DNA from: Arenicola marina
Taxonomy: Eukaryota > Annelida > Polychaeta > Arenicolidae
Assembly: GCA_964019135.1 (NCBI GenBank)
Contig: OZ025253.1
Location: 4,531,059 to 4,595,058, forward strand
Length of the DNA stretch: 64,000 nucleotides
Direction: 5' to 3'
Part shown: piece after piece, positions 1 to 60,747 of the stretch
How positions within the stretch are numbered: the first letter of the stretch is position 1
Layout: each line of letters starts with the position of its first letter
Translations under genes and position numbers: made by a program
The notes under the pieces: model-generated
What the model was told of the DNA's origin: nothing
Databases searched by the model: none
Seen by the model: only the letters and a program-made list of their open reading frames with translations

Positions 1-3
1 TAC

Positions 4-252
4 CTCATAAGTCACTTCTATCTGCGGACCGCTTGGGATGAAGTCAAAAAAACATTCTTCCTTCCCGGCTGGAACTTGAAATGTGAACCGGTCGTTGATC
101 GCGAGCGGCTTGCCGTTGCCATGGCCATATTGTATCTCCTCTGAAGACGTTGATGGTGTCACAATGGGCCACTCTGGCTGTGACGCACACTGGCACGTCA
201 GCGCCATAGCGAGCAGCATCCAACACGTCCTAGAGGCAGTTGCAGTGGCCAT
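4..252 (-). CDS. p24/TMED family gene, first exon (copy in unit A)
   Basis: This is exon 1 of a transmembrane emp24-domain (p24) protein; p24 proteins are ER-Golgi cargo receptors packaged into COPI and COPII vesicles. The exon starts at the ATG at 252-250 with a hydrophobic signal peptide (about residues 1-24). It then enters the GOLD domain, where the family motif FTFQVPAGKEECFFDF is plain. It ends at 4 with GAG before a GT donor at 3-2, the same splice point as the complete p24 gene at 57-60 kb. The remaining exons would lie beyond the left edge. The copy at 21,598-21,846 differs by only a few residues. The family assignment is confident; which subfamily is not clear. Confidence 0.8.
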
Positions 253-904
253 GACGAGTTGTTTTTCTTGGCGTTTTGCGATCATCGGGGAAGTATTTAA
301 GAGTTTGTGTTCTGTGAGGGAGTAGATCTATGTAGTAGGCTGTATTCTCTCTTGTCGCGGAATATTGTGCTGTCTCCTATGTATATCTCTGTGAGATTTT
401 GTCTGTTGTGTTATCTATGTGATGGAAACTGCGGAAAATGTCGACAGTTGTCTTCTCTGCCTGAGAATAGGTGTCGTCTGCTGTCTTCCCCAATGCGAGA
501 GAAAATGTTGCTTGCAGCATATTCTGCAAATCGTATATTTGACCACGTGCGTATATATGATAATTGTCGGACGACACGTTTCGTCCGCCGTGATTGGTGC
601 CTTATCCAATTAATATGTTATCGGATTTACCTGTAAATTTGATCAACCAACATACTGACAATCCGAGTGGCCATGCTTGGGTTTTGACGTTGATATTTAG
701 TAACCCCCCCTCCTCCCCACCCCCTCGCTCCCAGCACAAACTAATCAACTGATAAAGTCCCATGGCGCGATGTAATTAAACGCGTTAGATTCAAATACTC
801 CCCGTGTTCGTCAGTGGTTGGGTCCATCCGTTTTTATTGTTTGTTTGTTCTGTAAGTAACAATGCCATAGAACCAATCTACCCCTGAAAAAAGAAAATTT
901 GATA

Positions 905-1156
905 GATTGGTTATCCAGGACGCTTTAACCACCTTTGGTCATATCGCGTCAATGGGAGAGGGAAGAGAGAGTGAAGCCCTATCCCCGGGGGTAAGCCCCT
1001 ACTCTTTACGAAAAAAGACATGGGATCTTTATCCTGCGACCAAACAGACATGGCCACAGCAGTTCTCGAACCACCGACCCACGTGCCGTTAGGCTCTCAG
1101 GTGACCAGAGCACTCAATGCGAGCTTTCTAGCCCACTGAGCTGTCGCGCCGGCCCC
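905..1156 (-). mobile_element. tRNA-derived SINE
   Basis: On the minus strand a tRNA-like head begins near 1156. It has an A box CAGCTCAGTGGG (1143-1132) and a B box GGTTCGAGAAC (1072-1062), the RNA polymerase III promoter pair of tRNA-derived SINEs. A body of about 120 bp follows to about 905. That body recurs without the tRNA head and in the opposite orientation at about 61,005-61,140, which supports a dispersed retroposon. The unit B copy is at about 22,499-22,750. Confidence 0.7.
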
Positions 1157-3772
1157 AAGAAACCTTGAAGCCGGGCATCTGAATCAACTCCATAGGCATG
1201 CATGGTAAACGCATGCGAGAATCGGTTTTCTAACCCGTAACACGCAGTGTCTATATTTGACGATAGATGTCGCCTGGGGTATCTGGAACGGTCTATTGGA
1301 CGCAAGTGAAGCAATGGAAACGAGACGTCATATCAAGCAGGCGCTCCTTCTTTTAGTTTGCTTCTTAACTGATGATTTGCAGTGAGTGGAACCGCATCAT
1401 GTGCAATATTTCGTTTGATACTACAGAAAGACATGAATGCCAAAAAATAGAAAGCAAGGTTGAATTAATTAGGTTGTTGTTTTGTTTTCCATATGCGTGA
1501 AAATTCGGGACAATCGCTGAATGCTAGATGTTGTTGGTGGGACAGCTTGCACAGTGGCGCCGCTAGGCGAATGCAAAAAAGACCCTTTCTCGATTACCCC
1601 GTTGGAATCAATTGATCTATATTTTCACCCGGTCTATTCAATATATAACCGGATGTATGTAACTGTTGTAATAAATGTTTTAAAGTATAGCAGTATCACT
1701 AATAGTAAGAGCCTGATCCTAATGATAGGAAATTCTTTATTTTGGTGATATCAAATTATATCCTCAGTTAATGTTTATGACGAGATCCCCTGTAAAGTTA
1801 AAGGATGGCTGATTATGCCCGTACAATTCAACTTTTGGCACAGTCCTGGCAGTGTTCTTTTGTAGTCTGTGTGCATGTGTAAAAGTCAGAATGTAGCGGT
1901 TAATATGTGAAGTGTCTTATATATTATTCAAATAGATGTCTTGGAGGAGTGTATGTATAATATTCATATGTATATTTAATGGTGTGACATTACATATTAC
2001 TTTTTATTAGTAGATAGATAACTTGTGGATTTCATCTCGATACTCCTGGCGTTCTGCTAGTAACATTATTAGGGAAGACTCGGTTCCTGCTGGGTACAAA
2101 ACAGTATGAACTTTAACAAGAATGATGTATGTTGGGCCAACAGCTAATGCTTCACGCACATCGTAATAAGTCACGTTATCTAACCACAGTTAATTATTAT
2201 AGTCAGTAGATTCAAGTTTTGCGTACAGATTACACTGTTTGTGTTCATAATTTTGGTTTGCCGTGTTGTTATAATATCTAGTTTTCTAGAACAGATACTA
2301 TCCTTATTGTGTCATATGTCTTATTTTGTTAAATTTAAGCTGGGCAAGGTAAGAAAGTTTGCAATTATTCAAACAGGTGGTCGTATCGTGTTTGGATACG
2401 TATCTTATAGAACATACTATCAAGCGGTAAAGTTCTTCTTGTGGGTCATTCGTGTGAGCACTAATCGGTACACAACAATTATTCAAGACTTCAGTGTAGC
2501 AATACGTCTAAAAGCAGCTTATTTCCTGCTGTTGCAGATTTCTTTATCGATCATCCGCGAAAAAAAAATGTTTCTTACCTGAGAAACCTATGTTAGCGTT
2601 TACCGCATTTTTGTAATAAACCTTTTGCAGTTTTTAGTTAATATATCCTTTGGTGAAGGTGTCTATCAAGCCTTTCTTCTCTTGTATTAGTGCATCAAAG
2701 TTCTCGCGGGGCGTGTGCGATTTACCTGAAATCGACCGCTCTTGAAAAAGTTCTGTTTTTCCACGCTTATATTATCGAGCTGTAACGCCCCAAATAGTAG
2801 AAGGGCATACCTTTTCCACTTGTTTTCGCACCTACCAATTTAACTTCTGCGAGCGAGGAAAGTGACGTCAAAGGGGAACACAAACGCATGTGCTTTTGTA
2901 TTGAGACTCAGATTTTCTCTGCTCATTGGCTTGAACTCGCGAAACTCACTCAACCATGAGAACAATACACGCCCTCGACCACAGATGTCTACTCACTGCA
3001 TCAAAGGTCACCTTATGACATTATTGGGGAATGTTCAAATAACGCTCAGATGCAATGCTCCCAGAAATAATCCCGTCCGATCTCACTTTTATACTTTGAC
3101 GAACGTGTTTATAGTGATATCGTGGAATAAAAAATATAACTCCCATTAAAACAAATTGTGATTTGTTATCTTCCCTAAATTAAGTTAACTTTGAGAAAGA
3201 CGCAATCGTGGCACGAACACTTTAAGCCTGAACATTAAATAACCGGGAATCGGGAAATCTTGGTATTATTCTTTGTGATCTGCAAACGTAACACCCCCCC
3301 CCCCCCACCTTGCTCCCCCCCCCCCCCCTCCGTCTTTTATTACGGTTGAATAAAAGAATTTGGAAACGAAAACAACTACAACTGAATCCAAGCTTCATTT
3401 AATGATTATATTTTACGAAATACAACATATGCCTTATAGTCAGAGCCAATGTTCTAAAATGCAGCTTCATTAAATCTTCTTAACAGTGACCGATAATCAA
3501 CAGTGTATTATGCGTCATATATATTCAGTCTTCGTTTTAACACCTTTACCAGTACAATCATTGTGTCCAGTGAAGGCGTCTTGTATAACATATCCATTTA
3601 CCATATGATTAATTAATACAATGCCTAGCAGCATGATAATACAAAGGCATGTTATCAAATTGTGATCAATAAAACGTATTCTAAAAAGCAGTACATTTTC
3701 GCTTTTTTAACCAAATTGCATCGTCATCCATCAAACTGAATAACGGTGAAACGTTTGAAAATCCATTTGTGT
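1157..3772. other. Intergenic, no gene recognised
   Basis: This is AT-rich sequence between the p24 first exon and the 3' end of receptor A. A 113-codon open frame at 2,241-2,582 is kept in unit B, but the whole region is nearly identical there, so conservation says nothing; its composition (Ile, Phe, Tyr, Arg) is that of AT-rich chance frames. A double poly-C run lies at about 3,293-3,330 and is shorter in B. Relative to B, A lacks about 240 bp near 1,789. Confidence 0.6.
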
Positions 3773-6700
3773 TTACCAAGTAGACGTCACTGGCAACGGT
3801 CCAAGGTGTATTTCGGCGTCTGGGTTACGAAGAGGAGCCATTTTATCGTCCTGACGTCGGGATGTCCTCATGCGCAGCCCGAAAACCACAGCGATGATTG
3901 TTATAGCAAGCAATACTAACAAGGCGCCCCCTATTGAAAGACCGATAATCAGCTGTCGATTGGACCTGTAAGTCATCGAGCCAACTGCATAAACCAGACG
4001 GCGACCAGGACGCACCTGAAACAAAATGGTGGGAGCCTGGTACTGATCTGGTGCAGCAAGTCTACATGTTATAATAGGTGCAGCATCCTGTTTTAAAACC
4101 CTGTATACACAAACATATTAATAAATTGTCTAGAATTACTATTAGTAATTTTAGATAATTAGGCCCCAATCGCCTCTCCCTCTCAACACATCCCTCTCGG
4201 GCTACAAGCCTCGCTGACCGCCGGCCCACAATCTGGGCCTTCTGGATCCGGCGCTCCGATTGGACAGTTCCCCAGTCACTGGTCAGCGCTCCGATGGGTC
4301 AGATCCCCGGTCACTGGCCAGCGCTCGGCCTATAATCCCAGCGGCACCCCCTAGACCCGGCACTTGCAGGTCCCTGCCGTCGGAGCGCAATTTGGCTCCC
4401 AATACCCACCCACCCTTAAGCAATATTATAATTACTATGCATGTCATTATACAACATTTTACTTTTTAATGTTTGCTTATGTCGGCGCCACACCTTTGCC
4501 TTCTCTTCTTCTGACTGTTTACCTAATTACGCGTATATATTCCAAAATGGTCGCACGTTCGAGTTACCTTAATGGCATGAGTGACATCGCTGCCGCTGGG
4601 GGCGCCCTGGTCGTTCGGTGACGGTGTGAAACAGATGAGAAGCCGACTGGAGATCTCCACCTTCTGACACACGCCATCCCCCACCTCCACCACGTAGTTA
4701 CTGACGTCAATGCCATCCACGAAGTAACCCTGCGGAGAGAGATGAGACATGAGAGTCAGTCTGAATCTGAGCCTCCGCATGAGGGATGCGTCGCTATTGA
4801 GGCATCAAATGTAGCAATTTCCCTCCATTATGAAAACCCACAAAATGTGAACAACTTATGTCCCTCTAATGCAGCAAAAACCTCAAATGTACTTTTTCCC
4901 ACAAATCTAAATCCGCTTTCAAATATAACAACATATTTTCTCTCAAATATTTCTCTCAAGACGTCAACCTCTAATGTAGTAAACTTTGTCAATCACAATT
5001 GTAACAGCCGTTTGATGCTCTTGAGACATGTGTTGTTACACTTGAAGGCGGTTTACAGCTGTGGGATAAAAGTTACTACATTTGAGGGTTTTGTTACATT
5101 AGAGGGGAAAATGTTGTTACATCTTTTGAGCACCGACATTCTGAGGCTGTCGCACGATGCAGCCAGTTGCTGCTTAACGACGATGCAGCATGAGCGGCTG
5201 TCCGTGACACTCGCACTGATTTGCTTTCCCAATATGGTAGTTATCTAGGGAAGAAGACACAGGGGAATATAACATCACCCCAGCTAGCTTGGTTTGTTAT
5301 CGATACTTGCCGGGATGTGGAGTGGTGTCCCCTCAGAGTGTTCCGCCTCCAGGGTCACGTTAAAGTACGGCGTGACGACGATTTCCAGGACACCCTTGGC
5401 GGCCAGCGCCTCATCTGTGACGTTGCTGATGTTGGTGTACGCCTTGTAGCCGTCAAACTTGAAACCGATGTAGAGCGTGACGACGGCCAGGTCTGTGTCG
5501 TACGTCACGATGGCGGAGTCCGTATCACCTTGGGAACTGTTACCAGTGGCAGCCCGGATGTCGTCGGGAATGTCGCTAGGGGGTGTGGGGCAGAGTAGGC
5601 TGGTTTCACTGCTGATGTTGACGAGCTCGCAGATCTATATTTCCACAGGTGAAAGAGTGCGTGCTTAAATATTGCAGAACTACATTCATATTATTGGTGT
5701 AGTAGTAACAAATACGCGCGTGATTATCAAAGACCTTTCTCATATGAAGCATACCAATTTGGATATCAGCATTATAATTCAGTGTAAATAGGCATATTCG
5801 AGATGCACCGAAGCTGTCAGATGCAGCTGTAGGCCTGCCGACTGCATAATATATGGCATTGAATAGGCGAATATCGGCAAGGAATGATGCTTTCTAAACT
5901 GGAAATCGTAGCAGCGAGGAGTGGGCTACGAAGTAAAACTGAACCAAACCTCTGATGACTGAATGTTGGTCACATTGAAATCGGAGTTCTGACCGGCGGT
6001 GAGGAATCTCCTGATATTGGTGGTCACCTCGAGATACGGTTTCCACACAGAGTCCAAGGAAGACCCGGAGACAGTTAGGAAAGTACCGCCTCTGAAATCA
6101 AATGATTGTGTCCTTTGGGTTCAGATCAGACCATTCCGCTTGGTTAGGATATATAGTGGTAAAAGGCATGCTTCATCAATATCTCTTTTGTAATGAACAT
6201 TAACCACCTTCGAAAAAATGTAGATTCCCAATTGTTTCGTAACATGTGAATAATACACTGAACCCGATGTACCATTTGCCTGCATAAAAGTTGACCATTT
6301 CGAAATTTCGAATTAATATCAATAATAACCACTATACTTGCAATAACCACGATAGTGTACTAAACATGGTGCAAACGCTTCCTGTAATAACCAAGATACG
6401 TGTAATAACTATGATATATGTCATAAGCCCGATAAGTGTAATAACCATGATTTGTAAAATCACTAAATACATGTAATAACGTGTCATAACCACGATACAT
6501 GTTATAATCATAGTACGTGCATTGATCATGATACGTGTATAACCATGATAGGAAAAATAACTACGATACGTGTGATAACCATTATAAGCTAAATAACCAT
6601 GATACATCCAATAGACACGATACATGTAACAACCACGATAGTGTCATAACCACGATACGTGCATTAACCACGATATGTTCGATAACCACGATACGTGCAT

Positions 6701-9700
6701 TAACCACGATATGTTCAATAACCACGATACGTGCATTAATAACGATATGTTCAATAACCACGATACGTGCATTAACCACGATATGTTCGATAACCACGAT
6801 ACGTGCATTAACCACGATATGTTCGATAACCACGATACGTGCATTAATAACGATATGTTCAATAACCACGATACGTGCATTAATAACGATATGTTCAATA
6901 ACCACGATACGTGCATTAACCACGATATGTTCGATAACCACGATACGTGCATTAATAACGATATGTTCAATAACCACGATTCGTGCATTAACCACGATAT
7001 GTTCAATAACCACGATACGTAAAATAACCACGACATGTGAAACAACCACGATACCTCCATTCATCACCATGTTACTTACTCGAGTACCGTTAGTAGGGGG
7101 TTGATGTCCCTGATTGTGGGGTTAGACCTGTAGGTGAAGGTCACGTGATCGTCCACCGAGATGATACGTTGGTCTTGGAAGACGAGGCGAATGCGTAACT
7201 TCCGGTTTACATCGGTCTCCATGCCAACGCTTGTAGTAGCTTCTAGATAAGTGTCGTTACTGAAATTATATGGATTGACAGTTCACCAAATTGGTCTAAG
7301 TACTTACCCGATGTCCCGTAAATATCTAGTTCAGTATGTATTCATGATGATAATTGTCATGTCGACACCTTGAGATGGATGTAGAGGGTTCCGATAAACC
7401 TCGCAATGTGTTCAGCCTGATATTACATGCATAGATATCCCTTATGAAAATATCCTATGGTTATCCTATAGTATAACTATAGTTTTCATAGTATTACTAT
7501 AGTATTACTATGTCTTGTATAGTTATAATATAGTTAGTGGGAAATACTATGGTAGTTACTATACAATTACTATAGTCTCGCTAGGAATACTATGGTATTA
7601 CTATAGTTTTCATAGTAGTACTATAGTTTTCATAGTAATACTAATGTTATTTAGAAATACTATGGTAGTTACTATGGGACTACTATAGTCTCACTAGGAG
7701 TACTATAGTATTACTATAGTTTTCATAATAATACTATAGTTGTTTGGAAATACTATGGTAGTTACTATAGGATTACTATAGTTTCACTGGTATTACTATA
7801 GTTTCACTAGGATTACTATAGTCTCACTGGGAATACTATAGTTTTCATAGTATTACTATGTCCTGTATAGTAATACTATAGTTATTTAGAAATACTATGG
7901 TAGTTACTATGGGATTACTATAGTCTCACTAGGAGTACTATAGTATTACTATAGTTTTCATAATAATACTATAGTTGTTTGGAAATACTAGGGTAGTTAC
8001 TATATGATTACTATAGTTTCACTAGTATTACTATAGTTTCACTAGGATTACTATAGTCTCACTGGGAATACTATAGTTTTCATAGTATTACTATGTCCTG
8101 TATAGTAATACTATAGTTATTTAGAAATACTATGGTAGTTACTCTAGGATTACTATAGTCTCATTGGGAGTATTATAGTACTACTGTAGTTTTCATAATA
8201 ATACCATAGTTGTTTGGAAATACTATGGTAGTTACTATAGGATTACTATAGTTTTACTAGGATTACTATAGTTTCACTAGGATTACTATAGTTTCACTAG
8301 GATTACTATAGTCTCACTGGGCTTAGTATAGTATTGCTATAGTTTTTATAGTATTACTATGTCTTGTATAGTAATACTATAGTTATTTAGAAATACTATG
8401 CTAGTTACTATAGGATCACTATAGTCTCACTAGAAGTACTATAGTATTACTATTGTTTTCATAATAATACTATAGTTAGCAGGACTATGACGGCAGTTAC
8501 TTTATGTTTACTATAGTTTCACAAGGAGTACTATAGTATTACTATAGTATCATTAGGAGTATATATATATAATATTACTATAGTATTGGTAGAAGTATTG
8601 GTAGAAGCTGATACCCCATGACATGGGCCTGTGCCATATCTGCCATAGTTATAGTATTACTATAGTATCATTAGGAGTATTATAGGTACTACGATGGTAG
8701 TTACTATAGGATTACTATTGTTTTACTAGGAGTACAATAATATTACAATACCTACCATAGTAATACTATACTTGGAACTACGATGGTAGTTAATGTAGTA
8801 GCTTATTACTATACCCACCATACTAATACTACAGTATTTAGACAGTTTGTTACCGTGGGATTACTGTATAGTTACACTATGGTCTTGCCTCAATATGAGG
8901 TATTGAACGCGCAATCAAACACGATCAAACGTGCGACGTTTGATACCGACTGGGCCAACCGGTCTGCACAGTGGCAGGGGCGTTTGAATGCACCTGCCTC
9001 TTTGTGCACCCCGCCGGTCCGTTATTTACCTTTTCTTGAAATAATAACCTTAAGTGAAAAAACCGCGAAGAGAACTGCGTTTCGGTCGGCACTAAAAGCT
9101 ATAACGTTATTGAAATTAAATTTAAAAGTACCCATCTTTTATTCATTGGTAACATATACAATCGATCGCCGTTGTAAACGGGTGTCAAATCTCGCTGTTT
9201 ATCGGTGTAAATGGGCGTCAGGTTTGTATTTTGTAATCAGCGCATTCACGCTCCAAGTACAATTACAGGTTAAGAATTTGTGTCGGCCATCATACGTGGT
9301 GTGACATTGAGACAGGTAGGTTTGCTTGTTTCGCTCTTAGAGACGTGTGTATGTACGAAGAGATGGGGATGGGATGCTATCATGGAGCCCATGATAGAGC
9401 AGAGCGTACAGATGGAGGGGCTCGAAGCCGACGGGGTGGGTCCGCGCCCTATGCAGTCAGCAGTCAAAGAGGACTTCCCACTGCACCCATCTCACCCCGG
9501 CCAGTGGATACCTGCGTCTTGTAACAAGAGCCTCGCCTAGTTTATGGCTTCTGGACCCTCCTGCATCAGCAGAGAAGTACACATGCCGGCAACACTACTT
9601 GCCACATGTGTGCGCCGTTGCGCATCGACAAAGTTGGGGGAGAGGCAGGTTTTTATGACCCATACAGCGGTAGTGGGGCTGGCCCAATTAATGGGAGTTG

Positions 9701-12700
9701 TAAATGCTGGCGTCATGGCTGGGCATGGTGAGAGACTTGCACAAATTCAAACTTGTGTCAGTACTTGTCCTGCATGCTATAGGCTTGCCCAGTTGGGATT
9801 TCATCTACTGGGTATATTCAGTTCCAGCTTGAAATTTATCTAGTAGAAAAGAAAAAAAATGGCCTACCCAATTATTTGAGTACATGTGCCGGTATCTACA
9901 ACAAATTGTATATGAATATACATACAGAAGTTGCTGATGATATCAATGTATTTGTATTATATTTTATATTTGCAGAGAGTCATCAATTGATGCTTCCCAA
10001 AGATGCTGATCTGATATGCCTTTGGCGTTCAAGTTTTATTTATGCGAGTACATGGGCCGGTATCTATAACAAATTGTATATGCATACATACAGTTATTCC
10101 TTATGAAATCACTGAAATGTCTATTATATTTAATATTTGCAGTCACCAATGCTTCCCAAGGACGCTGCATGTATACCTTTTGGTATTTCAATAACATCTT
10201 TAAAAGTGATGAATTTGAGCTCCATATTATACAATGTCTGTTTATTATTATATTATTGCAGTTTGCAACAATACCAGATTATTTTTACATGGAAAATGTT
10301 TCTGATTTCTAACTCAAATTTCTGATCACCAGTATACCAGTGCATAAAACCAAAAGTATGAATAAAAGAGATAAAATGACAAAATGCAGGTCTTTTGCAA
10401 TATTTGTGGTTGATGCGTACATATATCTATACATGCACTATAAAATGATTTTGTATAGGTGCAATGATAAATGGTGATATGATATGACAAAAATACCATG
10501 ATTTATTATTGCAGTACTCTTGTCATCATTTTGGATAAGCTGATACCCCATGACATGGGCCTGTGCCATATCTGCCATAGTTATATACACTATAGTACTA
10601 TGGTATTCCAGGTGATATTGATACTATGGCTACCAAACTATAGTATTACTATAGTCAAGATAACTATGGTATTACTATAGTGAAGATAACTATGGTATTA
10701 CCATAGTCTAGATAACTATAGTATTACTATAGCCTAGATAACTATAGTATTGCTATAGTCTAGGTAACTATAGTATTACTATAGTCTAGGTAACTATAGT
10801 ATTACTATAGCCTAGATAACTATAGTATCACTATAGTCTAGATAACTATAGTATTACTATAGCCTAGATAACTGTAGTATTACTACAGTCTAGATAACTA
10901 TAGTATTACTATAGTCTAGATAACTATAGTATTACTATAGTCTAGATAACTAGTATTACTATAGTCTAGATAACTATAGTATTACTATAGTCTACATAAC
11001 TATAGTATTACTAGTCTAGATAACTATAGTATTACTATAGTAATACTATAGTCTAGATAACTATAGTATTACTATAGTAATACTATAGTACAGTACTATT
11101 GTGCACGAAATTACCACCGATTTACTATAGTTATAAAAAACTATAGTATTACTATAGCCTAGATAACTATAGTATTACTATAGTCCAGATAACTATAGTA
11201 TTACTATAGTCTAGATAACTATGGTATTACTATAGTGAAGATAACTATGGTATTACCATAGTCTAGATAACTATAGTATTACTATAGCCTAGATAACTAT
11301 AGTATTACTATAGTCTAGGTAACTATAGTATTACTATAGTCTAGGTAACTATAGTATTACTATAGCCTGGATAACTATAGTATCACTATAGTCTAGATAA
11401 CTATAGTATTACTATAGCCTAGATAACTGTAGTATTACTACAGTCTAGATAACTATAGTATTACTATAGTCTAGATAACTATAGTATTACTATAGTCTAG
11501 ATAACTAGTATTACTATAGTCTAGATAACTATAGTATTACTATAGTCTACATAACTATAGTATTACTAGTCTAGATAACTATAGTATTACTATAGTAATA
11601 CTATAGTACAGTACTATTGTGCACGAAATTACCACCGATTTACTATAGTTATAAAAACTATAGTATTGCTATAGCCTAGATAACTATAGTATTACTATAG
11701 TCCAGATAACTATAGTATTACTATAGTCTAGATAACTATAGTATTACTATAGTCTAGATAACTATAGTATTACTATAGTCTAGATAACTATAGTATTACT
11801 ATAGTCTATATATCTATAGTATTACTACAGTAATACTATAGTACAGTACTATTGTGCACGAAATCACCACCGATTTACTATAGTTATGAAAACTATAGTA
11901 TTACTATAGTTATGGACCATAGTACTTTTTCATAAGGGATGTTCCATTACTGTGAAGGCAACGGACACAGCAGATGCAAAGCAAGTCACGCAAGACAAAT
12001 TCATTCAAAATCAAGACAGACTGAGGTCTAGTTACTTTTTTTGAACGTCTGCCCGAATTATTATCTAGCGGGATCGAAATATCATCTAGGGGACCCTACT
12101 CATTATCAGAAGGGCCCTACTCATTATCAGAGGGGCCCTACTCATTATCAGAGGGGCCCTACTCATTATCAGAGGGACCCTACTCATTATCAGAGGGGCC
12201 CTACTCATTATCAGAGGAGCCCTACTCATTATCAGAGGGGCCCTACTCATTATCAGAGGGGCCCTACTCATTATCAGAGGGGCCCTACTCATTATCAGAG
12301 GGGCCCTACTTATTATCTAGAGAGGGTTGACGTATTAACTAGGGGGCCCTAGAGGGATCGACCCCGCCAGATAATAAGTAGGGCCCAATAAATAATAAGT
12401 CGATCTCCCTATATAATAAGTCGGAGATATACTTTCAATAAAAAGAAACACTTTCTTAAAAAGAGTTAACTTAGATATTAAACAGAGGCCATTAATAATG
12501 TTGCATTAATAAGAATGACACTCACCAAAATTGCACCGTTGCAAGGTAATCGTCTCCAATGTTGACGGTGGTGACCAGATAAGGCGACTGTAGGCCATTG
12601 CCTAGCAGTGTGATTACTGTACCTCCCGCCAGGGGGCCGCGATCGGGATACAATGAGTCTATAAGATTGGTGAAACACAATTATGCCATAGCGTAGTAAA

Positions 12701-15700
12701 TGATGTTTACATTTACCCCATATTTAGCACGGATTCATTGCTAATGACTGTATATGTGTCGACATTTTGTGTTACTTTCCAATTGAGTTGAATTTAATGC
12801 TCGAACCATCTGTGTGTTCATTGTGGGTTTATCGATGCCAACAGCTTGGGCACACAGTTAATTCGTAATGATATCAGCTGTAGCTGTGCAACAATATGTC
12901 AAACGGAGTTTGGGAGTTCTCATCGCGATGTTCATTTTGTGTAGCGGACTGACACAACGTTTACGATTTATGAGTCAAGGTTAATTTAGAACAAATTCAT
13001 TTTAAGCCAAATGACCTCTGACACGGTGCTAGGTTCATTTAACAATGAATCATACAAAAATGCACATGGTGCCACCCCCCCCCCCCACACCCTCTTCTCC
13101 AAAATAACATAAAATAACAGTCTCATAACAGAATAACTTGCAGTGATAGGCAATTACATGCTCTGCTGTAAGCCATAGCAGAATAACTTGCAGTGATAGG
13201 GAGTTACATATTTTGCTCTAAACCTCCTCAGACAAATAACGCTGATGAAACACTAACCGATCGTCGTCCAATCGGCTGTCGCGGTCGTGGTGTCCTCAGG
13301 TGCTGTTGTCCGAAGCGCATCGGGTCTCACTGCTCGTATAAAGTGCATATGGGTCACAAAGTGGGCTCCAAGTGTGTTTGCTGGGTGACATACACTATGT
13401 ATGATAACGAATAACGCGATAGTTGAACAATACGTATATATAATTAACGCGTGAGTCATTGTATGGAAGAATGAGCAAATTGTTTAAATGAGAAAACAAA
13501 TGTATATAACGTGTAAATAGGGTAGAACGTGAGAATTCTCTCGTAAAGACATCCCCCTCCAACCCATCCATCTTGCCAGGAGAACGCCTCCCCACAATCA
13601 TGTATGCAGTGTTTCGGAGAGCCACCCCCCGCCCCCCTCCCCCTCCTCACCGCGCCCAATCGTCTCTGAAGGGCTTTGGAGACCCCCCCCCCTATCCTCT
13701 GGCTGTCGTGCTTCGGAAAGCATCTAACGTCAATCCTATTTGCACAGTTTCAGGGATCAACCCCTGCCCCCACCCCCCCCCCCCCCCAATCCTATTTGAC
13801 CAGTTTCAGGGATCAACCCCTGCCCCCACCACCCCCCCCCCCACCACCCCGCATCCTGTGTGCAGTGTTTCTATGAGCCTCCTCCCCCCAATCCTATTTG
13901 ACCAGTTTCAGACAGCCTCCCCCCCCGCACCGTGTCAGCCGTGTTGCGGAGAGCCTGTCCCACCCCGACATTACATACGGATATGCGGGCCACGCGCATT
14001 GGCTCCAGGCTGCTGTCCACACTGCTCCCTGATCCGCCCATGCCCCGGAGCCTACCTTGCAGTCGGCAATACACTGTCTGAGGCACTCGTCTGTCCGATG
14101 TCCAGATCCACTTGGCGGCGGCGCTAATCCCAGGACGTGCGCCCCAGGGCTGCACACCGTGCGCGCCAAGCACAAGCGCAGCGTTCCAGCTGCTGTCGTC
14201 GAAGTTAGATTCCGTCCAACCGGGGACGAGACTGTGGAAGCCAATGGCGTGGCACTATTAAACTTACACATGCAGCAATATCTTTCCTCTCTGGATAATG
14301 AATATTAAATAGTTACGTAGAGATGACGACGTTAGATCTGTCGCAGTGTGCATCAGCGTATTCATCTGCTGAGTTTTGGCGCAAAAGATGGTCACCGATG
14401 CCCAGAGTTGTATGACGTAGTACACAAGAACGTCCCGTTTCCGTGCATTTATATGTACCAATCTGACAGAAAATATTTCTCAAGGCATCGCCGATTTATT
14501 CTTTGTACACTATTGCACTACAATAAATAGATTTAACAAAAAGTCCATCCTACAGATTTAAAATCTTTATCAGGGTAAAAAGCGATGTATTTTAATAATA
14601 TTTAATAATAATTTAATCACATCGAACTAGATTTGCGGATGATATGGGAATAATGATTTTACACATGTCCAGTGACTAGAACTAGAACGTAAGCAACATT
14701 ATTAACTTCGTTATTAACTTCGTTGCAGGTGTGTTGATTTGTCGACTTTGAACAAGGATTTCAATACACACCTGTCAGAACACTTCCACGTGCTGTTGGT
14801 AACGATACCGTTGTCGAAGGAGGCGATAACCCCGCACCAAGATGTTAAATTACTGTGGCACTGCAGGGCGAGCACTCTGGTGTCCTTTGGTATAGCGACC
14901 TGCAGTGTTTTTTGCCAATGAGTCATTTCCCCCCGGAAAATGCCGTCAGCAAAGAATTTTCCCACGTCATCACACACCACAGCAGCTGAAATGGTCGAGG
15001 CCGAATGTATAGCACAAAGAAATCTCCATATTACGATAAAGCCTAGTTCTATTGGGTGAATATCGTTTAATAAGTACAACTTCAACTGTAAAATGACCCA
15101 AATGAATGCTTCGATATCTCTATACAAAATTAGCGGTTATGAAATTACTTGTGTTAGATTTCAAATATTAACTGTTTCTGTCTTGGCAAGTAGCTTGCAG
15201 GCCAGGCATAGTGACTCAGTTGATCTCATTTAGGGTGAAGTTGATATTTCCAAGGCCGGGTCCAAATACATTATCCTATGCTCGAATCAATGGTTTATCA
15301 TCAGCTTGTCAGTTCCTCTCCTTGGTTTGACCACTTGCTTGTCACCTTATAGCTGAACTGATAAAGACTTCAAAACGTGTGTAACAGTTTGGGCGCCACT
15401 TTAACACTGGGTGATAATCCTTTTCGCCGTGTAATGTGTAAACTTAGATTTCGATTTCGGAATTTTACTTCGGGTCTTTATATAACAGTATAAGCCCATA
15501 TTGAGTAATTTTGATGGCGTCGCTAGGACCTCTGCTAGAACGTCCGTGCCTAAAAAAGGAGCTTTATGCCGGAATGTTAAATTTGCAGGCTCAATGATTT
15601 ATAATACATACGCATGGTAGTTTTGAGATGGTGATTTAAATTGCAAAATTATTCAAGATGGCGCATTTACATCTGATTTTAATATACGCCTTCTTTTAGC

Positions 15701-15874
15701 ACTAGTTAGATACGCACCAGAAATGGTCTCCGCCCTCAACGGTTGCCATGTCAACGCAGCGCAGAGGACAGTTAGGACATAAGTGTGGCTTAAACCGGAA
15801 GCGCTGACCTCGTGGCTCCACGAGAGAATGGAGAGCGCCACCGTCATAGTCCACAACATGGCGACACTTCTCAT
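3773..15874 (-). CDS. Receptor A: galactose-binding-like plus plexin-type TIG single-pass membrane protein (10 exons)
   Basis: Exons (minus strand): 15874-15718, 14985-14772, 14231-14056, 13329-13258, 12658-12526, 7259-7080, 6091-5950, 5634-5311, 4729-4568, 4087-3773. They join in frame to 1,875 bp, 624 residues. Order: signal region (1-52); galactose-binding-like module (53-182) with STWKCS, PWGARPGIS, KWIWTSD and TVYCR motifs; Thr-rich linker (183-206); TIG module (207-310) starting YPDRGPLAGGTVITLLG; second TIG (311-466) starting GGTFLTVSGSSL; plexin-like stretches LHIPGYFVDGIDVSNY and IITCRLAAP; membrane helix about 566-589; 35-residue basic tail without a kinase or GAP domain. Many N-x-S/T sites mark an extracellular ectodomain. 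Phases agree at every junction, and intron 8 uses a GC donor. It is probably a cell-surface recognition receptor; ligand and function are unknown. Fibrocystin-like TIG proteins are the alternative relatives. Confidence 0.82.
4776..5115. repeat. Degenerate inverted repeat in intron 8 of receptor A
   Basis: Short motifs such as CCTCTAATGTAG on the left recur inverted as TACATTAGAGG towards the right end. This suggests an old MITE-like palindrome between exons 9 and 8. Copy A contains a 35-bp stretch (about 4,961-4,995) missing from copy B. No gene is seen; the continuous plus-strand frame here is accidental. Confidence 0.4.
6340..7050. repeat. 36-bp minisatellite in intron 6 of receptor A
   Basis: The repeat is built from half-units such as AATAACCACGATACGTGC and ATTAACCACGATATGTTC. 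Degenerate copies begin near 6,340 and a regular block runs from about 6,650 to 7,020. Copy B keeps the degenerate flank but only about one regular unit (28,130-28,530). The near-identity between units A and B ends inside the degenerate part, at 6,480/28,275. Long frames on both strands here are products of the repeat, since 36 is a multiple of three. Confidence 0.85.
7439..8780. repeat. Left subterminal array of the 4.5-kb element
   Basis: Runs of ACTATAGTATTACTATAG-like modules alternate with short spacers (TTTTCATAG, TCTCACTAGGA, TTATTTAGAAA). The whole is organised in longer repeats of roughly 250 bp. Modules are their own near reverse complements, so the single strand could form serial hairpins. 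Confidence 0.8.
8781..10585. other. Non-repetitive core of the 4.5-kb element
   Basis: A 48-bp direct repeat beginning GCTGATACCCCATGACATGG brackets the core at about 8,607 and 10,539. At 9,880-10,210 a stretch of about 190 bp is duplicated, each copy with ATATTTGCAG (an acceptor-like site) followed by GATGCTTCCCAAAG or a variant. Open frames at 8,783-9,304 (173 codons) and 9,280-9,540 (86 codons) show no family motif that I recognise. This could be a decayed captured gene or an unknown passenger. Confidence 0.5.
10586..11938. repeat. Right subterminal array of the 4.5-kb element
   Basis: The unit is 26 bp, a TATAGTATTACTATAG core followed by TCTAGATAAC. About 45 units lie in higher-order blocks. 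A marker segment GTACAGTACTATTGTGCACG occurs at about 11,088, 11,606 and 11,842, showing block duplication of roughly 0.5 and 0.24 kb. Confidence 0.85.
12052..12425. mobile_element. MITE with internal 21-bp minisatellite, intron 5 of receptor A
   Basis: Ends of about 55 bp are imperfect inverted repeats around TTATTATCTAG and GGGATCGA. The interior is an array of about ten 21-bp units (GGCCCTACTCATTATCAGAGG). The copy in receptor B (29,033-29,327) has about five units. The repeated Thr-His-Tyr-Gln-Arg-Gly-Pro frame comes from the 21-bp period and is not a protein. Confidence 0.65.
13126..13215. repeat. ~51-bp tandem repeat beside receptor A exon 4, two units
   Basis: The unit begins CAGAATAACTTGCAGTGATAG and includes AATTACAT and TTTGCT(C/G)TAAAC. 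Unit B has four such units at 30,033-30,235, so the array has changed length since the duplication. It lies just downstream of the Thr-rich linker exon, within intron 4. Confidence 0.75.
13446..14046. repeat. C-rich tandem insert in intron 3 of receptor A
   Basis: This ~600-bp segment has no counterpart in receptor B. It includes at least three units of about 60 bp with TTTCAGGGATCAACCCCTGC and long C runs at 13,680-13,960. It also has fragments like the GGCGGATCC-type repeat described elsewhere. Its proline-rich open frames are a consequence of poly-C. Confidence 0.6.
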
Positions 15875-21018: not shown

Positions 21019-21594
21019 CACTAGTAACATGACTTCGGCACTAAGTACATAATGCTTACAAAAACATGAGAACAGCACCTACCACGGTTATTTTCCACAG
21101 AAAGCGGACGGCAGTGCCTTTGGCACGTGTGATACGCGCCACAGGGGGCACGTGGCCCCCCTTTCAGACCCTAAACTATAGCTGTGCCCCCCCCCCCTTT
21201 TTTCAAACCATTGTGCCCCCTGGCCTCTCCTTAGATATATTAGAGCTTCGTAGTTTGCGTGTTCTTTCTTACAAACGATTATAAAATGTGCAAATAGTAC
21301 GCAACATGCAACGCCATTTTGGGAAAGTCGTAATTCATCAGTAGACCTCTCCTCCTGCGGAAGAACGCTATCTGAGGCGTGGACCCCCGGTCGCAAGTTT
21401 CAATGGATTCCCCTCTTTTCAAATTCGTGTATTCGCCCCTGATGTAGAATATTTCAGTGTGTCCCCCGTTTCAGGGATTCCTGCACACACCCCTGGCACG
21501 GTAGCTCTACCACTGGCGAATTCCCTGGTTTTGTACGCAGCGTAATGTGTGAGCCCTTCCATCCTGGCGGCTCTTTTCCTAACCCATCAATATC
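21019..21594. other. Junction between the two duplication units
   Basis: This lies between element E and the start of unit B homology. It holds a GGGGGCAC/GTGGCCCCCC-type imperfect palindrome and a C run at 21,180-21,235, and a GGCGTGGACCCCCGGTCGC repeat fragment near 21,375. The intron following the unit B p24 exon starts at 21,597 and runs leftwards into this stretch. No p24 exons 2-4 are recognisable here. Confidence 0.5.
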
Positions 21595-21597
21595 TAC

Positions 21598-21846
21598 CTC
21601 ATAAGTCACTTCCATCTGCGGACCGCTTGGGATGAAGTCAAAGAAACATTCTTCCTTCCCGGCTGGAACTTGAAATGTGAACCGGTCGCTGATCGCGAGC
21701 GGCTTGCCGTTGCCATGGCCATATTGTATCTCCTCTGAAGACGTTGATGGTGTCACAATGGGCCACTCTGGCTGTGACGCACACTGGCACGTCAGCGCCA
21801 TAGCGAGCAGCATCCAACACGTCCTAGAGGCAGTTGCAGTGGCCAT
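21598..21846 (-). pseudogene. Stranded p24/TMED first exon (unit B)
   Basis: It is a near-identical copy of the exon at 4-252: ATG at 21,846, signal peptide, GOLD-domain motif VPAGKEECFFDF, and a GT donor after GAG. Coding potential is intact, but the 5.7 kb to the left, before receptor A starts, contains none of the later p24 exons (FCIGN-type and C-terminal membrane exons are easy to see in the gene at 57-60 kb). It is either an orphan exon or would have to splice across the whole of receptor A. Confidence 0.65.
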
Positions 21847-22498
21847 GACGAGTTGTTTTTCTTGGCGTTTTGCGATCCTCGGGGAAGTATTTAAGAGTTT
21901 GTGTTCTGTGAGGGAGTAGATCTATGTAGTAGGCTGTATTCTCTCTTGTCGCGGAATATTGTGCTGTCTCCTATGTATATCTCTGTGAGATTGTGTCTGT
22001 TGTGTTATCTATGTGATGGAAACTGCGGAAAATGTCGACAGTTGTCTTCTCTGCCTGAGAATAGGTGTCGTCTGCTGTCTTCCCCAATGCGAGAGAAAAT
22101 GTTGCTTGCAGCATATTTTGCAAATCGTATTTTTTACCACGTGCGTATATATGATAATTGTCGGACGACACGTTTCGTCCGCCGTGATTGGTGCCTTATC
22201 CAATTAATATGTTATCGGATTTACATGTAAATTTGATCAACCAACATACTGACAATATGAGTGGCCATGCTTGGGTTTTGACGTTGATATTTAGTAACCC
22301 CCCCCCCTCCCCACCCCCTCGCTCCCAGCACAAACTAATCAACTGATAAAGTCCCATGGCGCGATGTAATTAAACGCGTTAGATTCAAATACTCCCCGTG
22401 TTCGTCAGTGGTTGGGTCCATCCGTTTTTATTGTTTGTTTGTTCTGTGAGTAACAATGCCATAGAACCAATCTACCCCTGAAAAAAGAAAATTTGATA

Positions 22499-22750
22499 GG
22501 TTGGTTATCCAGGACGCTTTAACCACCTTTGGTCATATCGCGTCAATGGGAGAGGGAAGAGAGAGTGGAGCCCTATCCCCGGGGGTAAGCCCCTACTCTT
22601 TACGAAAAAAGACATGGGATCTATATCCTGCGACCAAACAGACATGGCCACAGCAGTTCTCGAACCACCGACCCACGTGCCGTTAGGCTCTCAGGTGACC
22701 AGAGCACTCCATGCGAGCTTTCTAGCCCACTGAGCTGTCGCGCCGGCCCC
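22499..22750 (-). mobile_element. tRNA-derived SINE (unit B copy)
   Basis: It is the duplicate of the SINE at 905-1156, with the same A and B boxes and the same position upstream of the p24 exon. It differs by a handful of substitutions and therefore predates the duplication. Confidence 0.7.
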
Positions 22751-25601
22751 AAGAAACCTTGAAGCCGGGCATCTGAATCAACTCCATAGGCATGCATGGT
22801 AAACGCATGCGAGAATCGGTTTTCTAACCCGTAACACGCAGTGTCTATATTTAACGATAGATGTCGCCTGGGGTATCTGGAACGGTCTATTGGACACAAG
22901 TGGAACAATGGAAACGAGACGTCATATCAAGCAGGCGCTCCTTCTTTTAGTTTGCTTCTTAACTGATGATTTGCAGTGAGTGGAACCGCATCATGTGCAA
23001 TATTTCGTTTGATACTACAGAAAGACATGAATGCCAAAAAATAGAAAGCAAGGTTGAATTAATTAGGTTGTTGTTTTGTTTTCCATATGCGTGAAAATTC
23101 GGGACAATCGCTGAATGCTAGATGTTGTTGGTGGTGGGACAGCTTGCACAGTGGCGCCGCTAGGCGAATGCAAAAAAGACCCTTTCTCGATTACCCCATT
23201 GGAATCAATTGATCTATATTTTCACCCGGTCTATTCAATATATAACCGGATGTATGTAACTGTTGTAATAAATGTTTTCAAGTATAGCAGTATCACTAAT
23301 AGTAAGAGCCTGATCCTAATGATAGGATATTCTTTATTTTGGTGATATCAAATTATATCCTCAGTTAATGTTTATGACGAGATCCCCTGCTCCCACACCC
23401 CACCCCTATCCAGAAGAATAACAACACTCAATTGCTACGTAAATATTCAGGAGATAATGTAGTAAGATCAATGATTATATGCGTGTTACTGATTGCTAAT
23501 TCGTCAAAGAGATATATTTGGTTATAAACTGAGTTTACCTAGGTAAAAAAACAGCCCAACTTGTAATTTAATTTGATTCAAGATTTCGTAAGTGACGGAT
23601 ATCATTAATCTCAAAGATGGAGTTACGTAAAGTTAAAGGATGGCTGAGTATGCCCGTACAATTCAACTTTTGGCACAGTCCTGGCAGTGTTCTTTTGTAG
23701 TCTGTGTGCATGTGTAAAAGCCAGAATGTAGCGGTTAATATGTGAAGTGTCTTATATATTATTCAAATAGATGTCTTGGAGGAGTGTATGTATAATATTC
23801 ATATGTATATTTAATGGTGTGACATTACATATTAGTTTTTATTAGTAGATAGATAACTTGTGGATTTCATCTCGATACTCCTGGCGTTCTGCTAGTAACA
23901 TTATTAGGGAAGACTCGGTTCCTGCTGGGTACAAAACAGTATGAACTTTAACAAGAATGATGTATGTTGGGCCAACAGCTAATGCTTCACGCACATCGTA
24001 ATAAGTCACGTTATCTAACCACAGTTAATTATTATAGTCAGTAGATTCAAGTTTTGCGTACAGATTACACTGTTTGTGTTCATAATTTTGGTTTGCCGTG
24101 TTGTTATAATATCTAGTTTTCTAGAACAGATACTATCCTTATTGTGTCATATGTCTTATTTTGTTAAATTTAAGCTGTGCAAGGTAAGAAAGTTTGCAAT
24201 TATTCAAACAGGTGGTCGTATCGTGTTTGGATACGTATCTTATAGAACATACTATCAAGCGGTAAAGTTCTTCTTGTGGGTCATTCGTGTGAGCACTAAT
24301 CGGTACACAACAATTATTCAAGACTTCAGTGTAGCAATACGCCTAAAAGCAGCTTACTTCCTGCTGTTGCAGATTTCTTTATCGATCATCCGCGAAAAAA
24401 AAATGTTTCTTACGTGAGAAACCTATGTTAGCGTTTACCGCATTTTTGTAATAAACCTTTTGCAGTTTTTAGTTAATATATCCTTTGGTGAAGGTGTCTA
24501 TCAAGCCTTTCTTCTCTTGTATTGGTGCATCAAAGTTCTCGCGGGGCGTGTGCGATTTACCTGAAATCGACCGCTCTTGAAAAAGTTCTGTTTTTCCACG
24601 CTTATATTATCGAGCTGTAACGCCCCAAATAGTAGAAGGGCATACCTTTTCCACTTGTTTTCGCACCTACCAATTTAACTTCTGCGAGCGAGGAAAGTGA
24701 CGTCAAAGGGGAACACAAACGCATGTGCTTTTGTATTGAGACTCAGATTCTCTCTGCTCATTGGCTTGAACTCGCGAAACTCACTCAACCATGAGAACAA
24801 TACACGCCCTCGACCACAGATGTCTACTCACTGCATCAAAGGTCACCTTATGACATTATTGGGGAATGTTCAAATAACGCTCAGATGCAATGCTCCCAGA
24901 AATAATCCCGTCGGATCTCACTTTTATACTTTGACGAACGTGTTTATAGTGATATCGTGGAATAAAAAATATAACTCCCATTAAAACAAATTGTGATTTG
25001 TTATCTTCCCTAAATTAAGTTAACTTTGAGAAAGACGCAATCGTGGCACGAACACTTTAAGCCTGAACATTAAATAACCGGGAATCGGGAAATCTTGGTA
25101 TTATTCTTTGTGATCTGCAAACGTAACACCCCCCCCCACCTTGCTCCCCCCCCCCCCTCCGTCTTTTATTACGGTTGAATAAAAGAATTTGGAAACGAAA
25201 ACAACTACAACTGAATCCAAGCTTCATTTAATGATTATATTTTACAAAATACAACATATGCCTTATAGTCAGAGCCAATGTTCTAAAATGCAGCTTCATT
25301 AAATCTTCTTAACAGTGACCGATAATCAACAGTGTATTATGCGTCATATATATTCAGTCTTCGTTTTAACACCTTTACCAGTACAATCATTGTGTCCAGT
25401 GAAGGCGTCTTGTATAACATATCCATTTACCATATGATTAATTAATACAATGCCTAGCAGCATGATAATACAAAGGCATGTTATCAAATTGTGATCAATA
25501 AAACGTATTCTAAAAAGCAGTACATTTTCGCTTTTTTAACCAAATTGCATCGTCATCCATCAAACTGAATAACGGTGAAACGTTTGAAAATCCATTTGTG
25601 T
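22751..25601. other. Intergenic, unit B, no gene recognised
   Basis: This is the counterpart of 1,157-3,772. It contains about 240 bp (23,390-23,629) that A lacks; the flanks GATCCCCTG and TAAAGTTAAAGG are directly joined in A. No repeat boundary or target duplication is visible at its ends, so a deletion in A is the simpler view. The poly-C tracts near 25,128 are shorter than in A. Confidence 0.55.
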
Positions 25602-28600
25602 TTACCAAGTAGACGTCACTGGCAACGGTCCAAGGTGTATTTCGGCGTCTGGGTTACGAAGAGGAGCCATTTTATCGTCCTGACGTCGGGATGTCCTCAT
25701 GCGCAGCCCGAAAACCACAGCGATGATTGTTATAGCAAGCAATACTAACAAGGCGCCCCCTATTGAAAGACCGATAATCAGCTGTCGATTGGACCTGTAA
25801 GTCATCGAGCCAACTGCATAAACCAGACGGCGACCAGGACGCACCTGAAACAAAATGGTGGGAGCCTGGTACTGATCTGGTGCAGCAAGTCTACATGTTA
25901 TAATAGGTGCAGCATCCTGTTTTAAAACCCTGTATACACAAACATATTAATAGATTGTCTAGAATTACTATTAGTAATTTTAGATAATTAGGCCCCAATC
26001 GCCTCTCCCTCTCAACACATCCCTCTCGGGCTACAAGCCTCGCTGACCGCCGGCCCACAATCTGGGCCTTCTGGATCCGGCGCTCCGATTGGACAGTTCC
26101 CCAGTCACTGGTCAGCGCTCCGATGGGTCAGATCCCCGGTCACTGGCCAGCGCTCGGCCTATAATCCCAGCGGCACCCCCTAGACCCGGCACTTGCAGGT
26201 CCCTGCCGTCGGAGCGCAATTTGGCTCCCAATACCCACCCACCCTTAAGCAATATTATAATTACTATGCATGTCATTATACAACATTTTACTTTTTAATG
26301 TTTGCTTATGTCGGCGCCACACCTTTGCCTTCTCTTCTTCTGACTGTTTACCTAATTACGCGTATATATTCCAAAATGGTCGCACGTTCGAGTTACCTTA
26401 ATGGCATGAGTGACATCGCTGCCGCTGGGGGCGCCCTGGTCGTTCGGTGACGGTGTGAAACAGATGAGAAGCCGACTGGAGATCTCCACCTTCTGACACA
26501 CGCCATCCCCCACCTCCACCACGTAGTTACTGACGTCAATGCCATCCACGAAGTAACCCTGCGGAGAGAGATGAGACATGAGAGTCAGTCTGAATCTGAG
26601 CCTCCGCATGAGGGATGCGTCGCTATTGAGGCATCAAATGTAGCAATTTCCCTCCACTATGAAAACCCACAAAATGTGAACAACTTATGTCCCTCTAATG
26701 CAGCAAAAACCTCAAATGTACTTTTTCCCACAAATCTAAATCCGCTTTCAAATATAACAACATATTTTCTCTCAAATATTTCTCTCAAGACAATTGTAAC
26801 AACCGTTTGATGCTCTTGAGACATGTGTTGTTACACTTGAAGGCGGTTTACAGCTGTGGGATAAAAGTTACTACATTTGAGGGTTTTGTTACATTAGAGG
26901 GGAAAATGTTGTTACATCTTTTGAGCACCGACATTCTGAGGCTGTCGCACGATGCAGCCAGTTGCTGCTTAACGACGATGCAGCATGAGCGGCTGTCCGT
27001 GACACTCGCACTGATTTGCTTTCCCAATAAGGTAGTTATCTAGGGAAGAAGACACAGGGGAATATAACATCACCCCAGCTAGCTTGGTTTGTTATCGATA
27101 CTTGCCGGGATGTGGAGTGGTGTCCCCTCAGAGTGTTCCGCCTCCAGGGTCACGTTAAAGTACGGCGTGACGACGATTTCCAGGACACCCTTGGCGGCCA
27201 GCGCCTCATCTGTGACGTTGCTGATGTTGGTGTACGCCTTGTAGCCGTCAAACTTGAAGCCGATGTAGAGCGTGACGACGGCCAGGTCTGTGTCGTACGT
27301 CACGATGGCGGAGTCCGTATCACCTTGGGAACTGTTACCAGTGGCAGCCCGGATGTCGTCGGGAATGTCGCTAGGGGGTGTGGGGCAGAGTAGGCTGGTT
27401 TCACTGCTGATGTTGACGAGCTCGCAGATCTATATTTCCACAGGTGAAAGAGTGCGTGCTTAAATATTGCAGAACTACATTCATATTATTGGTGTAGTAG
27501 TAACAAATACGCGCGTGATTATCAAAGACCTTTCTCATATGAAGCATAACAATTTGGATATCAGCATTATAATTCAGTGTAAATAGGCATATTCGAGATG
27601 CACCGAAGCTGTCAGATGCAGCTGTAGGCCTGCCGACTGCATAATATATGGCATTGAATAGGCGAATATCGGCAAGGAATGATGCTTTCTAAACTGGAAA
27701 TCGTAGCAGCGAGGAGTGGGCTACGAAGTAAAACTGAACCAAACCTCTGATGACTGAATGTTGGTCACATTGAAATCGGAGTTCTGACCGGCGGTGAGGA
27801 ATCTCCTGATATTGGTGGTCACCTCGAGATACGGTTTCCACACAGAGTCCAAGGAAGACCCGGAGACAGTTAGGAAAGTACCGCCTCTGAAATCAAATGA
27901 TTGTGTCCTTTGGGTTCAGATCAGACCATTCCGCTTGGTTAGGATATATAGTGGTAAAAGGCATGCTTCATCAATATCTCTTTTGTAATGAACATTAACC
28001 ACCTTCGAAAAAATGTAGATTCCCAATTGTTTCGTAACATGTGAATAATACACTGAACCCGATGTACCATTTGCCTGCATAAAAGTTGACCATTTCGAAA
28101 TTTCGAATTAATATCAATAATAACCACTATACTTGCAATAACCACGATAGTGTACTAAACATGGTGCAAACGCTTCCTGTAATAACCAAGATACGTGTAA
28201 TAACTATGATATATGTCATAAGCCCGATAAGTGTAATAACCATGATTTGTAAAATCACTAAATACATGTAATAACCAAGTCACGTGTCATAACCACGATA
28301 CATGTTATAATCATAGTACGTGCATTGATCACGATACGTGTATAACCATGATAGAAAAAAATAACTACGATACATGTAATAACCATTATGCGCGAAATAA
28401 CCATGATACATCCAATAGGCACGATACATGTAACAACCACGATGGTGTCATAACCACGATACGTGCTTTAACCACGATATGTTCAAAAACCACGACATGT
28501 GCAACAACCACGATACCTCCATTCATCACCATGTCACTTACTCGAGCACCGTTCGTAGAGGGTTGATGTCCCTGATTGTGGGGTTAGACCTGTAGGTGAA

Positions 28601-60569: not shown

Positions 60570-60747
60570 TTTTGTTTCTGTGAATGTCGTCTGCTCGGGC
60601 TCAGAGCGCGGGACGCTGGACGGCTCGGTTACTAGTGACAGCCTACACGAATGGCGGATCCCCGGGGCCGGCACGTTGCCTGCGCGAGGAGAGTGGACGT
60701 GGCCTCAAATTAATGACCTTGTTTGGCTGCGGCGTACTAGCCATGTG

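Follow-up and report, generated by a model that had tools for sequence, protein, structure and literature searches.

An array of lectin-headed, IPT-stalked genes for presumed receptors in Arenicola marina, with site-specific change in the head and recombination between copies

We analyzed a 64,000-nucleotide stretch of the Arenicola marina genome (assembly GCA_964019135.1, contig OZ025253.1; G000:C6:4531059-4595058, hereafter called the window) and found in it two genes, A and B, that form part of a tandem array encoding presumed membrane receptors with a lectin-like head and an IPT stalk. The reading that we favor, to which we would assign a probability of roughly 0.7, is that this array is diversifying through selection on head codons combined with recombination between copies. 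Amino acid change would be favored at some 15% of the head codons, in variable segments lying between conserved framework blocks, and recombination would join heads to other scaffolds (in A, at a minisatellite in intron 6) and homogenize the 3′ halves. A previous sequence-only reading of A and B had proposed that the membrane-distal domain is under diversifying selection. Our six-gene models and a set of preselected codons bear this out for exons 2 and 3 but not for exon 1, which has changed more slowly than the introns. The central claim is supported because other genes of the array, which that reading had not seen, carry a site-specific signal.

Results

Both genes lie on the minus strand. 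Each comprises ten exons, the splice sites match between the two, and the frames are open throughout; the spliced products, of 607 (A) and 619 (B) amino acids, contain no internal stops. Intron 5 measures 5,296 bp in A versus 731 bp in B. When the genome (867 Mb, 762 contigs) was searched with exon 2 DNA, eight copies were returned, all of them between 4.374 and 4.563 Mb of the same contig (C6), and protein matches across a 264-kb region delineated nine genes, g1 to g9, with A as g8 and B as g9. Two others are near duplicates, g6 (A′) of A and g7 (B′) of B. No exon 1 was found for g4. In B′ (at C6 4494196), some 860 bp of the B sequence, among them the first 80 codons of exon 8, are missing; this gap may be either a deletion or an assembly join.

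Diversifying selection on the head is apparent from codon models, which we fitted with custom-written maximum likelihood code (F3x4, M0 to M8, branch lengths fixed up to scale from a scaled M0) to six of the nine genes (g1, g3, g4, g5, A, and B). Left out were g2 (in which no exon 2 was found), the near copies g6 and g7, the poorly alignable exon 4, and exons 1 and 10. Across exons 2 and 3 (130 codons), twice the log-likelihood difference (2dl) was 53.6 for M1a/M2a, 56.4 for M7/M8, and 53.0 for M8/M8a, with about 15% of codons at an omega of 6.4. Taken singly, exon 2 gave 41.8 and exon 3 gave 8.8 (M7/M8), and exons 5 to 9 gave a 2dl of zero, an M0 omega of 0.28, and no class with omega above 1. 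With a second tree, the M1a/M2a value for exons 2 and 3 was 50.5, and with a near-star tree it was 55.4; it fell to 27.4 once 24 gap-adjacent columns (of 130) had been masked and ranged from 33 to 51 when genes were dropped one at a time. The maximum among 120 null simulations under M1a was 5.76. Ten codons had posteriors above 0.95 (A residues 73, 74, 75, 77, 99, 100, 101, 145, 173, and 174, with residue 101 at 0.999), and lower values were obtained for residues 62 (0.93), 72 (0.86), and 151 (0.75). Along the head, blocks identical in all aligned genes separate the variable segments.

An independent check made use of codons chosen blind to A and B, namely, those showing at least three residues among g1, g3, g4, and g5 (15 of 126 ungapped codons). 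Between A and B, replacement change at these 15 codons amounted to 14 of 35.5 sites (39%, compared with 7.4% in introns; P = 1.8e-7) and silent change to 0 of 9.5 (replacement versus silent, P = 0.04); at the remaining 111 codons, replacement change was 5.9%. Mirrored checks likewise placed replacement at variable codons above the introns for g3/g5 (P = 1.5e-5) and g1/g4 (P = 0.005).

The comparison of A with B, taken by itself, is little proof of selection. Codon alignment gave replacement/silent counts of 3/0 in exon 1 (plus a two-codon gap), 22/3 in exon 2 (25 base differences, with B lacking one codon), 7/1 in exon 3, 5/1 in exon 4 (plus 17 gapped codons), 0/1 in exon 5, and 1/5 in exon 6, followed by 0/0, 0/1, 0/0, and 0/0 in exons 7 to 10. 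The sequence-only reading, made by eye, had been right about the predominance of replacements in exons 1 to 3 and about exons 7 to 10, where it had seen no replacement and a single silent change, but it had wrongly called exon 6 about even. Fisher tests of replacement versus silent change were nonsignificant (exon 2, P = 0.21; exons 1 to 3, P = 0.10), and the binomial probability of that many replacements was 0.07 to 0.14 for exon 2 and 0.017 to 0.045 for exons 1 to 3.

As a neutral yardstick for this pair we took introns 1 to 4 together with the 5′ flank, where 154 of 2,084 (7.4%) to 167 of 2,042 (8.2%) sites differ, the range reflecting aligner settings. Against it, replacement sites in exon 2 (13.3%) have changed at 1.6 to 1.8 times the intron rate (P = 0.010 to 0.029), those in exon 3 (5.3%) at 0.64 to 0.71 times, and those in exon 1 (2.5%) at 0.31 to 0.34 times; for the three exons pooled (7.7%), the ratio is 0.94 to 1.04. 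Exon 2 thus exceeds the yardstick that the sequence-only reading had proposed, and exons 1 and 3 and the pool do not. If poorly alignable intron stretches are forced into a global alignment, intron 1 rises to 20% and intron 2 to 14%, values that exon 2 would not surpass. Within exons 2 and 3, only a few codons are under selection, and exon 1 lies below neutral.

One might argue from these figures that there has been no diversifying selection at all, that the contrast reflects old sequence patched with recently homogenized stretches, and that exons 1 to 3 drift at the intron rate. The pooled replacement ratio near 1, the nonsignificant Fisher tests, and the fact that exons 7 to 10 and their introns are equally near-identical (see below) would all fit such an account. 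It explains the membrane-proximal identity but not why separate genes have changed repeatedly at the same codons of the head, and it leaves unexplained both the site-model result and the excess over introns at the preselected codons of A and B; we consider it improbable.

Several further points weigh against the reading that we favor. Silent sites in exons 1 to 3 of A and B (4 of 126, or 3.2%) lie below the introns (P = 0.04 to 0.08), and the replacement/silent ratios are therefore inflated. In the mirrored checks, silent change was high as well (replacement versus silent, P = 0.54 for each). Whole-exon-2 ratios of replacement to silent rates (dN/dS) were 0.38 to 1.03 for all pairs except A type versus B type, a statistic that we set aside as too blunt, as it mixes variable segments with framework. 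The genes compared are paralogues and not alleles, and site tests are prone to inflation where copies recombine; moreover, the likelihood code was our own and scaled the branch lengths without freeing them. Some of the genes look damaged: neither exon 1 nor exon 2 was found in g2, exon 7 of g3 contains a stop, and most of exon 8 is absent from g7. No Pfam family was matched in the head, and the tail lacks tyrosine, so that there can be no immunoreceptor tyrosine-based activation or inhibition motif (ITAM/ITIM).

The lesions or missing exons of g2, g3, and g7 could also be taken as signs of relaxed constraint or decay, in which redundant heads have been freed from purifying selection. The framework codons of A and B, which have changed at about the intron rate (5.9%), and the variable codons of g3/g5, which are high in silent and replacement rates alike, would agree with this. 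Relaxation alone, however, cannot lift replacement above the introns, nor does it sit easily with variable segments that alternate with blocks invariant in all aligned genes or with an omega significantly above 1 at sites in the six-gene set. Such an explanation strikes us as very improbable, and we retain selection at a subset of head codons as the better account.

The near-identity of the 3′ halves of A and B calls for a different explanation. It extends to a block in which coding and noncoding DNA are equally near-identical (Table 1), other matched pieces of the duplication having a raw identity, gaps included, of 82 to 91%. Differences number only 5 in 1,414 sites of introns 7 to 9 and 16 in 1,966 of the 3′ flank; because these noncoding parts are also near-identical, the identity of exons 7 to 10 is not evidence of constraint, and we discarded constraint as its explanation. 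The sequence-only reading had held that the membrane-proximal part stays constant, and the M0 omega of exons 5 to 9 across the six genes does indicate purifying selection there; the A/B identity on which that reading relied reflects regional homogenization.

A itself is a recombinant whose 3′ half comes from the B lineage. Between the 5′ flank and the end of exon 6, A and A′ are 99.2 to 100% identical in 16 windows of 400 bases (the alignment chain skipped eight intervening windows, and a further one, on a repeat, stood at 83%); from exon 7 onward, A is 94 to 98.5% like A′, and its match to B climbs from 81 to 96% to 99.5 to 100%. Approximately unbiased (AU) tests agree. For exons 2 and 3, the grouping of A with B was rejected (P = 0.019) and A groups with A′; for exons 8 to 10, the grouping of A with A′ was rejected (P = 0.0028) and A groups with B. 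The array genes more generally are mosaics of head and scaffold. Genes g3 and g5 are near g1/g4 in exons 1 to 3 and introns 1 and 2 and near A/B in exons 6, 7, 9, and 10, where the introns of g1 are no longer alignable with theirs; exon 8 of g3 and g5 is about equally near both.

It could be objected that A/A′ and B/B′ are uncollapsed haplotypes, such that the array is partly an assembly artifact and the differences are allelic. Parts of the g6-g7 block are indeed 99.3 to 99.5% identical to g8-g9 in stretches 3 to 24 kb long. Set against this, A′ and A differ by approximately 1.5 to 6% in windows of the 3′ half, and B′ is without part of exon 8. We regard the haplotype explanation as rather unlikely, and the main tests took one member of each pair and hence are independent of it.

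The head (exons 2 and 3) resembles Pleurotus ostreatus lectin (POL), with E values of 6e-13 (A) and 9e-16 (B; the alignment covers residues 6 to 109 of a 135-residue query), and the rhamnosidase of Streptomyces avermitilis with its CBM67 module (3w5m; 1e-6 for A and 8e-6 for B). PMC11512411, which names entries 6T1D and 6LI7 as POL, assigns calcium binding to an Asp pair and sugar binding to a third residue, which is P in POL and V in Shictin; in Shictin, this residue lies 53 to 54 positions beyond the pair. The DD of POL aligns with DD58-59 of A, which is DD in five of the six modeled genes and DN in g1. By our own mapping, the POL proline closest to the Shictin spacing falls in the alignment column occupied by A residue 101, whose codon is among those under selection; the residues in this column are I, K, I, Q, S, and D in g1, g3, g4, g5, A, and B. 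The proline of the PWG motif (residue 152) was rejected as the third sugar-contact residue, its spacing being incompatible. Site 62 lies at a distance of three residues from the DD pair, and sites 145 and 151 adjoin a proline kept in all six genes. N-glycosylation sequons number five in the head of B and two in that of A, and two of the three found only in B fall on codons in the site-model list. From its likeness to these lectins, the head is predicted to bind sugar and calcium, and the variable segments may form one face.

In the remainder of A, a Pfam search (E up to 1) identified TIG only (4e-14, three stretches), with no Sema, PSI, kinase, or Ras-GAP domain; the stalk also matched MET (5e-8) and plexin-A4 (3e-6). 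In the presumed membrane topology, the head would be outermost, ahead of the stalk, the hydrophobic helix, and the short tail. Exon 8 has at least 30 matches in the genome that span 107 to 108 of its 108 residues, A itself included. Eight are in the array, and the others are at C6 3.66 to 4.27 and 9.83 to 10.09 Mb and on C14, C3, and C4. For the lectin head there are at least 113 matches, of which many lie in C7 arrays or stand as single open frames on C3. Head and scaffold thus have had separate histories. Within 10 to 20 kb around 5 of the 22 exon 8 copies outside the array, no convincing lectin exon was found (best E value, 0.006, with a stop).

Two of the outlying loci (L029 on C14 and L032 on C3) have scaffold exons 5 to 8 that are 93 to 100% identical to those of array genes, with no lectin exon within 10 kb; they may be either recent headless copies or carriers of new heads. 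Two-exon relatives of the lectin head form dense arrays on C7 at 25.28 to 25.50 and 33.54 to 33.64 Mb, their identity to A being approximately 42 to 48% in the N part and 46 to 57% in the C part.

Table 1. Exons of genes A and B and associated repeats, by position in the window
Feature	Position	Strand	Remarks
Recently homogenized or duplicated block	1-6711		98.3-98.5% identity with 21595-28515 across coding and noncoding sequence
36-bp minisatellite, 13 copies	6594-7061		Intron 6 of A; switch from A′-like to B-like at or beside the repeat
Gene A exon 1	15874-15718	minus	Start codon; leader region by eye
Gene A exon 2	14985-14772	minus	First part of POL/CBM67-like lectin head; variable segments at residues 72-78 and 97-101; DD58-59 conserved
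Gene A exon 3	14231-14056	minus	Remainder of lectin head (PWG 152-154, WIWT); selected codons 145, 173, 174
Gene A exon 4	13380-13258	minus	Thr-rich linker; length differs in frame from B
Gene A exon 5	12658-12526	minus	IPT (MET/plexin-like) stalk begins; within MET match, residues 221-350
Gene A exon 6	7229-7080	minus	IPT stalk
Gene A exon 7	6091-5950	minus	IPT stalk; within best TIG match, residues 305-386
Gene A exon 8	5634-5311	minus	Stalk
Gene A exon 9	4729-4568	minus	Presumed stalk end
Gene A exon 10	4015-3773	minus	Hydrophobic, presumed transmembrane, helix and short tail
Gene B exon 1	32841-32679	minus	
Gene B exon 2	31543-31333	minus	
Gene B exon 3	30677-30502	minus	
Gene B exons 4-10	30424-30269, 29555-29423, 28691-28542, 27886-27745, 27429-27106, 26558-26397, 25844-25602	minus	

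Elsewhere in the window, intron 5 of A carries long minisatellites of the CTATAGTATTAC type (7466-8587 and 10636-11831), the second of which matches itself inverted. Two exons of p24/GOLD (EMP24_GP25L) type are on the minus strand at 21454-21921, straddling the duplication edge at 21595, and at 60228-60704, the latter below the Pfam cutoff. An inverted repeat of 1,699 bp (41434-43132/44912-46610; 99.2% identical) is present in the neighboring g6-g7 unit too, and an overlapping tandem duplication (52640-53659/53449-54467; 99.8% identical) has its copies about 810 bp apart. Rfam (at the gathering threshold) and tRNA scans of the 64-kb window returned no match. In COX1, TGA is read as Trp and AAA is retained at a Lys position, which argues against an echinoderm.

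Discussion

In the reading that we favor, with selection at a limited set of head codons and recombination between copies, one variable segment aligns, by our mapping, with a likely sugar-contact position of relatives, and the DD pair that is predicted to hold calcium is kept. Given that placement and the kept pair, the members of the array probably bind different ligands by means of a shared core. Such receptors may serve in the recognition of microbes or of other individuals, an immune or allorecognition role that the sequence-only reading had also put forward.

No publication with this architecture was recognized in the literature that we covered, which was mostly of the nonsubscription kind, but parts of it have counterparts. 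POL and the CBM67 module of the Streptomyces rhamnosidase are counterparts of the head, which aligns with POL and keeps the calcium DD pair; here, however, there is a single module, encoded by two exons and set ahead of an IPT stalk, its sugar binding is predicted only, and the third sugar-contact position, as we map it, falls inside a selected segment. Botryllus fester and sea urchin Sp185/333 invite comparison, by description only, as recognition or immune genes that are reported to have either selection or clusters with segmental duplications. Their domains we take to be unrelated to those of the array receptors.

The TIG/IPT stalk matches link the array genes to MET and plexin ectodomains. 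Plexins (PMC6374515) carry Sema, PSI, and intracellular domains (of Ras-GAP type) that Pfam did not find in A. Nearest in logic, as described in a preprint (PMC12324515), are TgrB1/TgrC1 of Dictyostelium, transmembrane recognition proteins with TIG/IPT domains whose variable locus is diversified by recombination. Theirs is a demonstrated allorecognition role, with binding ascribed to the TIG domains; here, the variable part is the lectin-like head.

A broader picture, which we offer tentatively and with more doubt than confidence, is of some thirty genes built on one IPT scaffold, their heads swapped by recombination. The sugar-binding-like head of the array would then bear ligand-facing variation, in the manner of antibody loops, around a kept calcium pair, for allorecognition or microbe recognition, in an arrangement unlike described complexes.

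From a methodological viewpoint, the array illustrates how a comparison of two copies can mislead, as half of the apparent contrast between constant and variable parts is due to gene homogenization. For the biology of the animal, it supplies a defined candidate set of germline-diversified receptors, in which named codons are predicted to determine specificity and the conserved DD pair to hold calcium.

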